Shown here piece by piece: positions 2,961-9,997 of a DNA stretch of 38,083 bases (the first letter of the stretch is position 1; each line of letters starts with the position of its first letter). The stretch covers positions 1-38,083 of the forward strand of contig JARLHR010000127.1 of the NCBI GenBank assembly GCA_031292145.1, written 5' to 3'. This DNA comes from Clostridium sp. Lineage in GTDB: Bacteria; Bacillota; Clostridia; Clostridiales; Clostridiaceae. Under the pieces are notes generated by a model. It was not told where the DNA came from, did not search any database, and worked only from the letters and a program-made list of their open reading frames with translations. A program made the position numbers and the translations under genes.

Positions 2961-3977
2961 GTGAGAAATGAATGTAAGGTAACTCAGCAAGATTTAAAAT
3001 ATGCATTTGATAAAATAGATTACTGGTATAAAAAAAATATTAAATTTTTAACAATAGTTACAGTTCCATTTAATACATCATGTGTTTTTTCAAATATAAT
3101 AAGTAAGATTTGTAATGATAATTGTAGGGTATTGTATGTATGGGGGAAGAATGGAGAGAATAAGGAATTAATTAGTGTAATTAGGGAAAGTAATTTCAAT
3201 ATAACTCACTGTTATATTGAAAAAGGAACATCGACTAAAGATCTTACATTTGTACATCACAATAATTTATTTAAGGTTGAGGAACAATATGATTTGGTTA
3301 TTTTTGATGATATAACATCCTTTTCAAATTTAAGTAGTGGAAATGTAAGAGAATTGTTAGATGTTTGCGCTGAACTAGGAGAAAGGGTTTTATTATATAG
3401 TATAGAAAAAATGGCATTAGTAGGGGAAAGATTTGAACTTGCAGCATACAATTATAAAAAGCCTTTTGTAGAACCTAGAATATTGTCAACTAGAATAGAT
3501 TTAAATATAGATATTCCATTTACTCTTTACGATTACATTAAATGGTTTAAAGAAAATAACCATAAAGTTGCTATTTATGTGCCAAGTAAAGAAAAAATTA
3601 ATATTGTTTATGACTACTTTTTGAATAAATTAAAAATTTCAGATGTTAGAATTATGAAAGCGTCTAGAAGTGATGAAATAAAGGTATGTGAAAAGGTATC
3701 AAAATACAAGGATAAGGCAATATTTGTAATAACTAATAAAATTGAGGAGTTACTTGAATATTGCAATATGGATGATGCTGTAGTATTATTTTCTGATAAT
3801 GAGAGATACACTTATAAAAAAATATTATATATATGTGGGCAAATAAGAAATATGAATCTGAAATTACCAGAAGTTCTTTTAGTATCAAATGATGAATCAG
3901 AAGATATGGAAAAAGCAAAAAATATGGCAAGAGATTTCAATAAAAAAGTATGGGAAAAACGTTTAAGAGAATTGTAA
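2961..3977 (+). CDS. Degenerate ComFA-like protein (probably not an active helicase)
   Basis: A 338-aa protein starting at GTG 2961, with AGGAG about ten bases upstream. It lies between recD2 and comFC, overlapping comFC by 28 bases, which is where comFA, the DNA-uptake helicase, sits in Firmicutes. The outline resembles ComFA: FLTIVTVPFNTSC where Walker A would be, YDLVIFDDITSF where the DEAD-like Walker B would be, KVAIYVPSKEKINIVYDYF as the start of the second helicase domain, ILYICGQIRN where the arginine-finger GRVGR motif VI would be, and a C-terminal PEVLLVSNDESED strand. The Walker A lysine and GKT are missing, as are the motif VI arginines and an N-terminal zinc-cysteine cluster. I therefore see a ComFA relative that has lost ATPase residues. 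The homology is inferred from fold order and gene position, not from strong identity. Confidence 0.6.
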   Translation: MRNECKVTQQDLKYAFDKIDYWYKKNIKFLTIVTVPFNTSCVFSNIISKICNDNCRVLYVWGKNGENKELISVIRESNFNITHCYIEKGTSTKDLTFVHHNNLFKVEEQYDLVIFDDITSFSNLSSGNVRELLDVCAELGERVLLYSIEKMALVGERFELAAYNYKKPFVEPRILSTRIDLNIDIPFTLYDYIKWFKENNHKVAIYVPSKEKINIVYDYFLNKLKISDVRIMKASRSDEIKVCEKVSKYKDKAIFVITNKIEELLEYCNMDDAVVLFSDNERYTYKKILYICGQIRNMNLKLPEVLLVSNDESEDMEKAKNMARDFNKKVWEKRLREL

Positions 3978-4606
3978 AAAGGCTTTGGGAAGGATTAATT
4001 GAGATAATATATCCACGAGAAAATTATTGTATCATTTGCAAAGAAGAAGATTGCTTTGGGATTTGTGAATCTTGTATAAAAAGTATAAAAACTATAAGTG
4101 ATTTATATCAAGATAAAATAATAAGCTATGGATATTATGGAGGAGTATTAAAAGAATTAATACTTAAGTTTAAATACAAAAATAACTTCACAGCTGGGGA
4201 TATATTAACAGAGTTTTTAGAGGAATATATTATTAATAATTTAAATTATAAAGGATACATAGTAACATATATACCTTTATCAAAAAAATCTAAAAAAATT
4301 AGAGGTTTTAATCAATGTGAATATATTGCAAAGAAGATAGCAAGAGACCTATCAATTGAAGTTTTAGAAATTTTAATTAAGCAAAGAGAAACTAAAGAAC
4401 AAAAAACACTAAAAAAGGATGAACGGCATGAAAATATAAAAGATGCTTTCAAATTGAAAAATGAGATAAACTTAGAAAATTGTAGAATTATATTAATTGA
4501 TGATGTAACAACTACAGGTGCAACTCTTGGTGAAGCATATAAATTATTAAAAAAATATAACGCAAAAGACATAAAACTCTTGACCTTAGCGAAAAGTCAT
4601 ATATAA
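3950..4606 (+). CDS. comFC: ComF family protein (ComFC), phosphoribosyltransferase-like
   Basis: A 218-aa cytosolic protein of the ComFC/GntX type, associated with natural transformation and handling of single-stranded DNA in competent bacteria. The N-terminus has a small zinc-ribbon cysteine set (CIIC at about 25-28, then CFGICESC). The C-terminus has the PRPP-binding signature RIILIDDVTTTGATL of type I phosphoribosyltransferases. KSKKIRGFNQCEYIAK and KQRETKEQKTLKKDER are also typical ComF segments. The ATG at 3950 lies inside the preceding gene, so translation is probably coupled. The stop codon TAA (4604-4606) is part of the -10 box of the next transcription unit. Clostridia often carry comF genes without proven competence, so the physiological role is uncertain. 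Confidence 0.9.
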   Translation: MGKTFKRIVKRLWEGLIEIIYPRENYCIICKEEDCFGICESCIKSIKTISDLYQDKIISYGYYGGVLKELILKFKYKNNFTAGDILTEFLEEYIINNLNYKGYIVTYIPLSKKSKKIRGFNQCEYIAKKIARDLSIEVLEILIKQRETKEQKTLKKDERHENIKDAFKLKNEINLENCRIILIDDVTTTGATLGEAYKLLKKYNAKDIKLLTLAKSHI

Positions 4607-4607
4607 T
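4580..4607 (+). promoter_or_regulatory. SigA-type promoter of the raiA-motif RNA
   Basis: TTGACC at 4580-4585, a 16-base spacer, and a perfect TATAAT at 4602-4607. The expected start, about 7 bases later, falls at 4614, exactly the first base of the closing stem of the RNA. The -35 lies in the last codons of comFC, and the -10 contains its stop codon. Confidence 0.75.
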
Positions 4608-4613
4608 ATTAAT

Positions 4614-4823
4614 GTAAAGCTAGGTTTGTGGTTGAAAGTCGAAGCTAGTCGCAGGCAAAACGATCCACGTAATTTAGACAAAATGTCTAAGGAGCATGGT
4701 GCGGTATAGAAGTAAGTCCTGCCAGTTTATAAACTGAGAGGGTTAGTAGTGAGGGATTAAATTCTATTAGCAAAAGCTCCAGCAGGCGAGTGTGGGGTCA
4801 AAAACCAGGTCAACTAGCTTTAC
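4614..4823 (+). ncRNA. raiA-motif noncoding RNA
   Basis: About 210 bases upstream of hpf (also called raiA), much richer in G and C than the flanks and without a useful reading frame. The ends pair perfectly: GTAAAGCTAG at 4614-4623 with CTAGCTTTAC at 4814-4823. Inside are a hairpin TTAGACA/TGTCTAA (4674-4680 with 4684-4690), a palindromic hairpin CAGTTTATAAACTG (4723-4736), GCAGG at 4651 and 4782 either of which could pair with CCTGC at 4718-4722, and GTGTGGGGTC near the 3' end. Size, location next to hpf, and multi-branched fold with a possible pseudoknot fit the raiA RNA motif known from Firmicutes, which has been linked in Clostridium to sporulation and aggregation. It has its own promoter and a terminator before hpf, so it is a separate RNA rather than an hpf leader. 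The assignment is from memory of the motif, not a covariance-model search. Confidence 0.85.
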
Positions 4824-4857
4824 CTTATATAATATAAAATAGTTATTTGAATTTTTT

Positions 4858-4892
4858 AAACTAACCGACGATTGTTGACGGTTAGTTTTTTT
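4858..4892 (+). terminator. Terminator after the raiA-motif RNA
   Basis: AAACTAACCG at 4858-4867 pairs with CGGTTAGTTT at 4879-4888, loop of 11 bases, T run 4886-4892. It separates the RNA from the hpf promoter, giving a transcript of roughly 275 bases before any trimming. Confidence 0.85.
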
Positions 4893-4967
4893 AGGTATGT
4901 AAAAGAAAAAGATAAGTTTTATGAATCTTCCTAATATATAAATTTTCAGAATTGACTGATAATTCTC

Positions 4968-4996
4968 TTGTTAAGTTCGATAAAAAGTGATAGAAT
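4968..4996 (+). promoter_or_regulatory. Promoter of hpf
   Basis: TTGTTA at 4968-4973, 17-base spacer, TAGAAT at 4991-4996 preceded by TGA (extended -10). It lies downstream of the RNA terminator, so hpf has independent transcription. A SigH or SigB promoter, as used for hpf in Bacillus, was not evident. Confidence 0.6.
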
Positions 4997-5055: not shown

Positions 5056-5589
5056 ATGAGAGTCACAGTTATAGCTAAAAATATGGAACTTACAGATGCG
5101 CTAAAGGAGATAGTACAAAAAAAGATAAGCAAATTGGAAAAGTATTTCGAAATCGATGTGAATGCAAAAGCTACATTGAGTGTTCAAAAAAATAGACATA
5201 AAATAGAAGTGACTATCCCATTTAATGGAGTCATATTAAGAGGAGAAGAATCAACATCCGACATGTACAAGTCTTTAGACTTGGTTGAAGATAAATTAGA
5301 AAGACAAATCAGAAAACAAAAAACTAGATTATCAAGAAAGCAAGGCGGTTCATTAAAATTTGGTGAAATTAATAATATAGAACTTAGTCCGTCAGATGAA
5401 GAACATGGTAAGCTAGTTAAAGTAAAAAAATTTGGTGTAAAACCAATGAATTCCGAAGAAGCTATTCTTCAAATGGATTTACTAGGACATAATTTCTTTG
5501 TATATGAAGATGCTGATAGTGGGAAAGTAAATGTAATTTATAAAAGAAAAGATGGAGATTATGGTTTATTAGAACCTGAATTTATTTAA
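5056..5589 (+). CDS. hpf: Ribosome hibernation promoting factor, long form
   Basis: A 177-aa cytosolic protein that binds the 30S decoding region and drives 70S dimerisation into inactive 100S ribosomes in stationary phase. The N-terminal domain (about 1-100) starts MRVTVIAKNMELTDALKEIV and carries a basic stretch RQIRKQKTRLSRKQ. The C-terminal domain (about 120-177, KVKKFGVKPMNSEEAILQM through YKRKDGDYGLLEPEF) is the dimerisation module found only in long HPF. The start at ATG 5056 has GAGGGG nine bases upstream. The upstream neighbour is the raiA-motif RNA, an association seen in many Firmicutes, but promoter and terminator placement suggest separate transcripts. A terminator follows. Confidence 0.96.
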   Translation: MRVTVIAKNMELTDALKEIVQKKISKLEKYFEIDVNAKATLSVQKNRHKIEVTIPFNGVILRGEESTSDMYKSLDLVEDKLERQIRKQKTRLSRKQGGSLKFGEINNIELSPSDEEHGKLVKVKKFGVKPMNSEEAILQMDLLGHNFFVYEDADSGKVNVIYKRKDGDYGLLEPEFI

Positions 5590-8901: not shown

Positions 8902-9997
8902 ATGATTATCGAGCTTGAAAAGGAATTAGCAAAGCTTCCTAATATAAAAAAATCTATAGAAGAAATGGGGGCTTCACTTTGACAGGGGAGGTTTGGAGAA
9001 AGAACTTCATGAATTAGAATGTCAAATGCAAGAACCTGGATTTTGGGATAATACCAAAAGAGCAGAAGAAATTACTAAGAAGAGTAAGTCCATAAAAGAT
9101 AAAATTGAGAACTTTGATAAACTAAAATCAAAAATCGAAGATATTGAAGTGTTAAAAGAAATTATGGAAGAGGATGATGAAGAATCTGCAAATGAAATAA
9201 TACAAACAATGAAAGAGATAGAAGTTCAAATTGACGATTATAATATGAAAGTGCTTTTATGTGGAGAATATGATAAGAATAATGTTATTTTGACCCTACA
9301 TGTTGGAGTAGGAGGCACTGATGCTAACGACTGGACAGAAATGCTTTTGAGAATGTATACACGATGGTGTGAAAAGCAAGGGTATAATGTTGAAACTTTA
9401 GATTTACTTCCGGGAGATGAAGCAGGAATCAAGAGTGTTACACTAAAGATTACTGGAGAATATGCATACGGATATCTAAAAGCAGAAAAGGGAATTCATA
9501 GATTAGTTAGAATTTCACCATTCAATGCTAATGGTAAGAGACAGACATCTTTTGCGTCAATGGAAGTACTTCCGGAGCTTACAAAAGAGCAAGATATAGA
9601 TATAAGACCAGATGATCTTAAAATAGATACCTATAGATCAGGGGGAGCTGGAGGACAGCACGTTAATAAAACGGATTCAGCAGTAAGAATTACACATATT
9701 CCTACAGGGATAGTTGTACAGTGTCAAAATGAAAGAAGCCAATTTTCAAATAAAGATACAGCTATGGAAATGTTAAAGTCAAAATTGGTTGAGCTAAAAG
9801 AAAGAGCTCATAAAGAAAAAATTGAAGATCTAACTGGAGATTTAAAAGATATGGGATGGGGAAGTCAAATAAGATCATATGTATTCCACCCATATAGCAT
9901 GGTTAAAGATCATAGAACTAATGTAGAGACATCCAACGTTACAGCAGTAATGGATGGTCAAATAGATATGTTTATAAATGCATATTTAAAGCAATAA
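8902..9997 (+). CDS. prfB: Peptide chain release factor 2, with +1 programmed frameshift
   Basis: RF2 releases finished proteins at UGA and UAA. Translation starts at ATG 8902 (AAAGGGGTGG just upstream) and reads 26 codons, MIIELEKELAKLPNIKKSIE to the leucine CTT at 8977-8979, where in-frame TGA follows. A +1 shift skips T8980 and continues with GAC at 8981, giving 364 aa in all, the family's usual length. The codon-reading tripeptide SPF lies in VRISPFNANGKRQTSF, and the catalytic GGQ in YRSGGAGGQHVNKTDSAVR. The CDS is thus 8902-8979 joined to 8981-9997. The shift gives autoregulation: low RF2 makes the ribosome pause at UGA and slip. No obvious terminator follows within 130 bases. Confidence 0.97.
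8967..8983 (+). promoter_or_regulatory. prfB +1 frameshift site with internal Shine-Dalgarno-like G run
   Basis: The slippery sequence CTTTGAC (8977-8983) is the conserved RF2 recoding site. GGGGG at 8967-8971 is the internal Shine-Dalgarno-like stimulator. Five bases separate it from CTT, compared with three in E. coli. Confidence 0.95.

Follow-up and report, generated by a model that had tools for sequence, protein, structure and literature searches.

The window, by which we mean the whole 38,083-nucleotide stretch of DNA that was analysed, carries comFC, a structured RNA and hpf in that order on the plus strand (Table 1). The RNA belongs to the raiA (ModT) family, and hpf encodes a ribosome hibernation factor of the HPF/YfiA family. 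The comFC frame matches NCBIfam TIGR00201 comF with an E of 4.8e-34 and 118 bits, which is under the curated cut-off of 233.55. Elsewhere in the window, at 8902-8983, the ATG of prfB opens one frame, which runs into CTTTGAC (8977-8983), presumably the usual release-factor-2 frameshift site; the listed open reading frame starts after it.

Table 1. Features of the comFC-raiA-hpf region of the window, and loci in other genomes grouped by arrangement
Feature	Position or loci	Strand	Remarks
comFC	3950..4606	+	Open reading frame; final codons contain the raiA promoter; stop TAA at 4604-4606, within the -10 box
-35 box TTGACC	4580..4585	+	In frame with comFC (Leu-Thr codons); TTGACN in 55/55 genus loci
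-10 box TATAAT	4602..4607	+	Same in 55/55 genus loci
raiA (ModT) RNA body	4614..4823	+	Start 4614 predicted; RF03072 match 4615-4822
P1 closing stem, 5' arm	4614..4623	+	Pairs with 4814-4823; sequence and fold
Pseudoknot pk-1, P3 loop half	4648..4653	+	Can pair with 4700-4705; by eye; Rfam long-range helix
Pseudoknot pk-1, pk-loop half	4700..4705	+	Can pair with 4648-4653; by eye; Rfam long-range helix
P1 closing stem, 3' arm	4814..4823	+	Pairs with 4614-4623; sequence and fold
Intrinsic terminator (predicted)	4858..4892	+	Hairpin 4858-4888, T run to 4892
Candidate hpf promoter TTGTTA-17-TAGAAT	4968..4996	+	TG before the -10 (extended -10); promoter scan, relatives
hpf	5056..5589	+	NCBIfam TIGR00741, E 3.1e-26
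raiA without the consensus promoter	L004, L005, L015, L023, L029, L098, L102, L105, L108, L111, L112, L119, L128, L137
Full-length raiA ~34-42 nt before zf_Tbcl	L061, L063, L065, L066, L068, L069, L071-L074, L076, L078, L092, L232
Cold-shock-type gene between raiA and hpf	L053-L056, L070, L077, L095
mini-raiA	L079-L091, L141-L153		Families f66 and f111; P1, P3 and pk-1 kept; zf_Tbcl leader

Judged by its sequence, the segment is a genuine copy of an already known structured RNA. The first-pass annotation had called it a raiA-motif RNA and had set a covariance search as the check beforehand. When the Rfam library was run against the window, RF03072 matched at 200.3 bits (E 1e-51), where the gathering score is 101.3 bits, and the match covers the full length of the model (positions 1-209). 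This is the sole Rfam match above threshold in the window, and a search of the 6.34 Mb genome finds raiA in single copy. The G+C enrichment and the perfect closing stem described in that annotation are also borne out. The match has 42.8% G+C against 20-32% in 200-base windows that do not touch raiA, and P1 has 10 bp with zero mismatches and is recovered by the computed fold too. The fold of 4614-4900 is equalled or bettered in stability by 1 of 200 dinucleotide shuffles (z -3.65). Six consecutive pairs of pseudoknot pk-1 can be drawn by eye, two of them G-U; the name comes from the accessible part of PMC11751092, which reports a solved raiA structure with 7 pk-1 pairs. The window copy therefore combines a score above the gathering threshold, the full model, the P1 stem and pk-1 pairing, and at sequence level it has its own SigA promoter and its own terminator.

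The raiA promoter, TTGACC-16-TATAAT, has 11 of 12 consensus bases, making it a near-consensus SigA promoter, and the predicted start falls 7 bases after the -10 box on the first base of P1, as had been proposed. A promoter scan of one sequence proves little by itself, with 11 promoter-like sites in 1.4 kb versus 8.1 in shuffles. Our comparison set has 119 loci that match raiA or mini-raiA, 55 of them from the window's own genus. Full raiA is carried by 73 of 98 relatives, including 55 of 59 genomes of the genus; these 55 loci are related, so counts over them are not independent. A 39-position search just upstream of raiA finds a SigA promoter scoring 11-12 of 12 in 55/55 genus loci, whereas 8 of 1351 control searches drawn from 73 raiA loci score 11 or more. 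All 55 copies have TTGACN-16-TATAAT. The alignment rows were picked by their -35 and -10 words, and none of the 55 failed. The first five positions of the -35 box and all six of the -10 box are invariant, while several spacer positions vary.

This promoter lies inside a gene. In 53 of the 55 genus loci it is in the comFC reading frame, with the comFC stop codon TAA inside TATAAT. The -35 box is read as Leu-Thr (TTG ACN), and the free sixth base is the wobble base of the Thr codon. The Leu codon at the -35 box is TTG in 53/53 cases versus 82 of 1001 (8.2%) among the other Leu codons of the same comFC matches. The two exceptions keep the promoter beside raiA. At L120 comFC ends 56 bp before raiA and the promoter sits in a second comFC-like tail; the two tails form a tandem pair (L120:1729-1928, minus strand), with the raiA promoter in the distal one. 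At L008 comFC ends 889 bp before raiA with other sequence between them, and the promoter still adjoins raiA. The intervening ~0.85 kb (L008:610-1464, plus strand) has a long open frame on the opposite strand that resembles a membrane transporter.

The genomes that do not have raiA are worth considering too. In the four such genomes of the genus a repeat search in which all candidates were scored gave nothing above the cut-off and a single match at 10.4 bits. Two of the four are 99% complete, and both keep comFC followed by hpf. The raiA promoter is absent from these two, which read GTGACT...TATAAG in one case and TTAGTT...TATAAC in the other. Their comFC still ends in ATA TAA.

What does the constant comFC neighbour mean? 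One can imagine that the linkage is functional and that raiA has a role in competence. A comFC match is upstream of raiA in 55/55 genus loci, and a figure of 74% comes from a published survey quoted in the accessible text of PMC11706538. We argue that the simplest reading is different. The neighbourhood of raiA is constant because its promoter sits inside comFC, so the embedded promoter by itself can explain the synteny and no functional link is needed. Each partner also occurs without the other. There is comFC without raiA (L033, L034), and raiA without a nearby comFC match in Acetoanaerobium noterae, where the 6.2 kb around raiA that we examined has neither a comFC nor an hpf match, and at further loci. 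We therefore regard the functional linkage as highly unlikely, and a constant comFC neighbour does not imply a role in competence. The embedded arrangement is not universal either: 14 loci from another family of the same order differ in having no site scoring at least 10 at the usual promoter place (Table 1). In several of these 14 an AAGG(N)TAT-like stretch lies before raiA.

The downstream end has a predicted terminator of its own. Its hairpin is A/U-rich (-11.7 kcal/mol) and begins 36 nt after P1. A simple terminator scanner found none in the region, probably because its loop-length limits do not fit this hairpin. A terminator within 150 nt of raiA is found in 46 of 55 genus loci versus 16 of 220 shuffles; at the other 9 none was found by the criterion used. 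The hairpin starts no more than 10 nt from P1 in 26 of the 46 and farther away in 20, including the window. Both position and sequence of the terminator vary among relatives, with starts from +1 to +109.

hpf is found downstream of raiA in 54 of 55 genus loci, starting 134-474 nt after it. The best site upstream of hpf scores at least 9 in 49 of 54 relatives versus 224 of 540 resampled sequences. An own promoter for hpf, which the first-pass annotation had asserted, is thus plausible from the sequence, but the candidate is weaker than the raiA promoter and is the least certain part of the unit. Rfam types RF03072 as 'Cis-reg; riboswitch', though published knockouts report trans action. That type line would make raiA a cis-acting riboswitch leader of hpf. 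The near-constant hpf neighbour fits this, as do the loci elsewhere in which raiA leads a zf_Tbcl gene and a terminator is not found beyond chance. However, an hpf leader would be a continuous 5' UTR, and here a predicted terminator and a promoter candidate intervene. There is a terminator in most of the genus loci as well as in the window, hpf starts at a distance and has its own promoter candidate, and ModT is complemented in trans according to the available part of PMC11706538. The hpf leader is very improbable on this evidence. A compromise would be a conditional terminator, with raiA acting as a free RNA and, where regulated read-through occurs, also as a 5' leader of hpf. An A/U-rich hairpin of -11.7 kcal/mol set 36 nt from P1 could be read in this way, and long and short isoforms are described in other clostridia in the same partly available source. 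The varying position and sequence of the terminator are unlike a conserved expression platform, and we think the compromise unlikely. Since raiA has its own promoter and its own terminator, and hpf has a promoter candidate, a free transcript is the best reading. The proposal of a complete unit between comFC and hpf, with a separate terminator and a free structured RNA that is not an hpf leader, holds in every part when judged by sequence.

We argue that the window, from a Clostridium-type genome, holds the noncoding RNA raiA/ModT as its own unit, expressed from an embedded promoter and most likely acting in trans as a timer of growth exit. We give this reading a probability of roughly 0.85. 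RNA polymerase with SigA would start at 4614 from the promoter in the final comFC codons, and the transcript would form the compact raiA fold of ~210 nt. Transcription would stop near 4890, at the intrinsic terminator. The primary transcript would measure ~275-280 nt, like the 'long' isoforms, and trimming to ~210 nt may follow. hpf would be read separately from its own promoter. Its most likely mode of action, by analogy with C. difficile and C. acetobutylicum, is in trans, timing the exit from exponential growth, and it would probably be the RNA part of a ribonucleoprotein.

The sources of these statements differ. Family membership, the promoter and terminator sequences, the embedding of the promoter and its absence from two raiA-less genomes were computed here. 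Trans action, abundance and phenotypes are taken from print (PMC11706538, as far as its text was available), and we infer their extension to the window organism. The accessible portion of that paper describes a SigA promoter and two isoforms for ModT/raiA, and a discrete transcript with trans action and high exponential-phase abundance in other clostridia. It reports complementation in trans for C. difficile ModT and states the same for C. acetobutylicum; DMS probing differs between native and deproteinated ModT. The RNA is abundant there, and its conservation extends to more than 2,500 species. Published work includes knockout phenotypes, cryo-EM structures and c-di-GMP effects, so the RNA is better studied than the first-pass annotation implied; its statement that the biochemical function is still unsolved is still right. 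Family, promoter type and free nature were already known, and the window copy is a further, ordinary member. For the embedded promoter, the zf_Tbcl leader and the short form described below we found no description in the literature covered, parts of which were accessible, and we do not claim that they are unpublished.

Outside the genus raiA is arranged differently. In a phylum-wide sample raiA is above the cut-off in 35 of 398 genomes; when a search covered more than 40 genomes the filters were stricter and few candidates were scored in each, which may have left weak copies unfound. In 13 of the 35 (families f52, f34, f132 and f57) raiA ends ~34-42 nt before the start of a small zinc-finger gene of the zf_Tbcl type. 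The zf_Tbcl assignment rests on PF13451 and PF23477 for one mini-raiA neighbour and on PF13451 across genomes. Terminators after these full-length copies are not beyond chance, at 2 of 13 loci versus 19 of 52 shuffles; the test covered 13 of the 14 such loci in Table 1, all but L232. In 7 of the 35 the gene ~100 nt after raiA is of the cold-shock type, a name given on the basis of sequence and not by a family search, and hpf comes next in 7/7. At L053 and L056 a T run follows P1, which makes the stem itself a possible built-in terminator. A terminator-like hairpin can also be seen by eye after the A. noterae raiA. raiA thus seems to form a free unit of its own in some lineages, whereas in others it seems to belong to a leader. 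Since the leaders of other lineages have no terminator beyond chance, a cis role is possible for the family as a whole.

Two stronger versions of the zf_Tbcl connection were rejected. zf_Tbcl is not an obligate partner of raiA: PF13451 has a match in 21 of the 35 full-raiA genomes and none in 14. Overall it has a match in 259 of 398 genomes, including 13/13 with mini-raiA. Nor is the zf-leader motif part of raiA, for zf_Tbcl also has a similar GUGAGGG leader in two genomes with no raiA match (L226, L287).

The short form, for which we coined the name mini-raiA, is found in 13 further genomes of the 398. It is uniform, with 113-120 nt and 38.9-58.9 bits. A zf_Tbcl gene lies downstream in 13/13, and a terminator was found after it in 0 of 13 versus 8 of 52 shuffles. 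A gap-pattern search of named genomes gave 13 contigs with the short form, and the carriers include Thermosediminibacter litoriperuensis, Fervidicola ferrireducens, Thermovorax subterraneus and Tepidanaerobacter. Among 26 genomes searched in the class of the mini-raiA genomes, the short form (110-121 nt) occurs in 19 and the full form in 3, and there is no match in 4. All 19 short copies score below the RF03072 cut-off (38.9-58.9 versus 101.3 bits), and the middle of the model is deleted in the four alignments inspected. The 3 full forms in this class also precede zf_Tbcl. Since full raiA is widespread outside the class too, the short form is most simply a reduction. On this sequence evidence mini-raiA is treated as a reduced derivative of raiA and not as a member of RF03072. 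With a model of the short form built without structure (R1), the strong matches (E below 1e-27) among the 398 genomes are the same 13 mini-raiA genomes, and the other 33 genomes with a match are full raiA carriers.

We aligned 18 distinct mini-raiA sequences with MAFFT. Because the exact pattern used to collect them includes the P1 core, this core is constant in the 18 by construction, but it is also held by 13/13 copies that the Rfam model found without the pattern. P3 varies in one of the 18. Because MAFFT puts the 3' strand of pk-1 in the wrong place for some sequences, we counted pairs by segment parsing. By this count four pairs of pk-1 never change; at the fifth, 14 of 18 sequences have C-G, U-A or U-G and the pair is broken in the other 4, and at the sixth 12 of 18 have a standard pair. 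There is also a new helix, in which three C-G pairs are followed by U-A or A-U in 18/18 and by a further pair in 18/18, with one outer pair in 16/18 and the next in 0/18; the parsing took the best-fit register for this helix and so leans towards pairing there. Compared with full raiA, then, mini-raiA has a nearly identical P1 core and P3 and keeps pk-1 with a compensatory change at its fifth pair, but it is 110-121 nt long without P4 and P6-P8, leads zf_Tbcl and has no terminator that we found.

Two pairings that could act on translation were considered and are not claimed. Sequestration of the start codon in mini-raiA (AAUGCC of the P1 3' arm against GGCAUU at the zf start) could occur in some families, but full-length zf-type loci with another P1 sequence have no such complementarity by eye. 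Pairing of CUCCC with a GAGGGG ribosome site is good by eye in part of the group only. Two zf_Tbcl leaders without a model match are apparent relics of raiA when inspected by eye. One (G171, L252), from the same class, has an outer stem and a P3-like hairpin; the other (G129, L224), from another lineage, retains a P1-like stem and ACCAGGUC.

One can imagine from this that raiA has two lives: in several Bacillota lineages a zf_Tbcl leader, whole or (in one class) minimal with P1, P3 and pk-1, that could gauge a ligand or the zinc-finger protein itself, and in Clostridium a free trans-acting RNA with its promoter inside comFC and a terminator at its end. We consider this doubtful. If it is true, the minimal form would mark out the functional core of raiA, and a reporter placed behind the leader form would be a simple way to assay the signal of raiA.

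A presence of raiA in viruses or plasmids was considered and rejected. There is no raiA match in 50,697 phage records and one in 72,556 plasmid records (NZ_CP154629.1, L269, A. noterae). That record is 2.63 Mb long and labelled a plasmid, and it reads like a chromosome. No viral contig has the 19-base raiA core pattern or the mini pattern. The 68 viral contigs with a 15-base core look like chance, with a further short raiA word nearby in 2 of 68.

These results matter in several ways. With the promoter embedded in it, comFC becomes a weaker synteny clue to what raiA does, and the last codons of ComFC are predicted to be constrained by raiA. Together, mini-raiA and the zf_Tbcl leader amount to a deletion series made by nature and a cis context for reporters, in which a direct search for a ligand or protein partner could be made.

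The window raiA is like RF03072, ModT and the C. acetobutylicum raiA in its full-length match, its P1 and its possible P3/pk-1 pairing. It is also like ModT/raiA in having a SigA promoter, a downstream terminator and comFC upstream. The downstream gene differs, for hpf follows raiA here and a PTS operon follows ModT in C. difficile. With its terminator 36 nt after P1 the expected primary transcript is that of the long isoform. Likened by description only, raiA resembles OLE, ROOL and GOLLD as a large and highly structured bacterial RNA. According to the available part of PMC12286853, OLE, ROOL and GOLLD form multimers, whereas raiA was resolved as a monomer.
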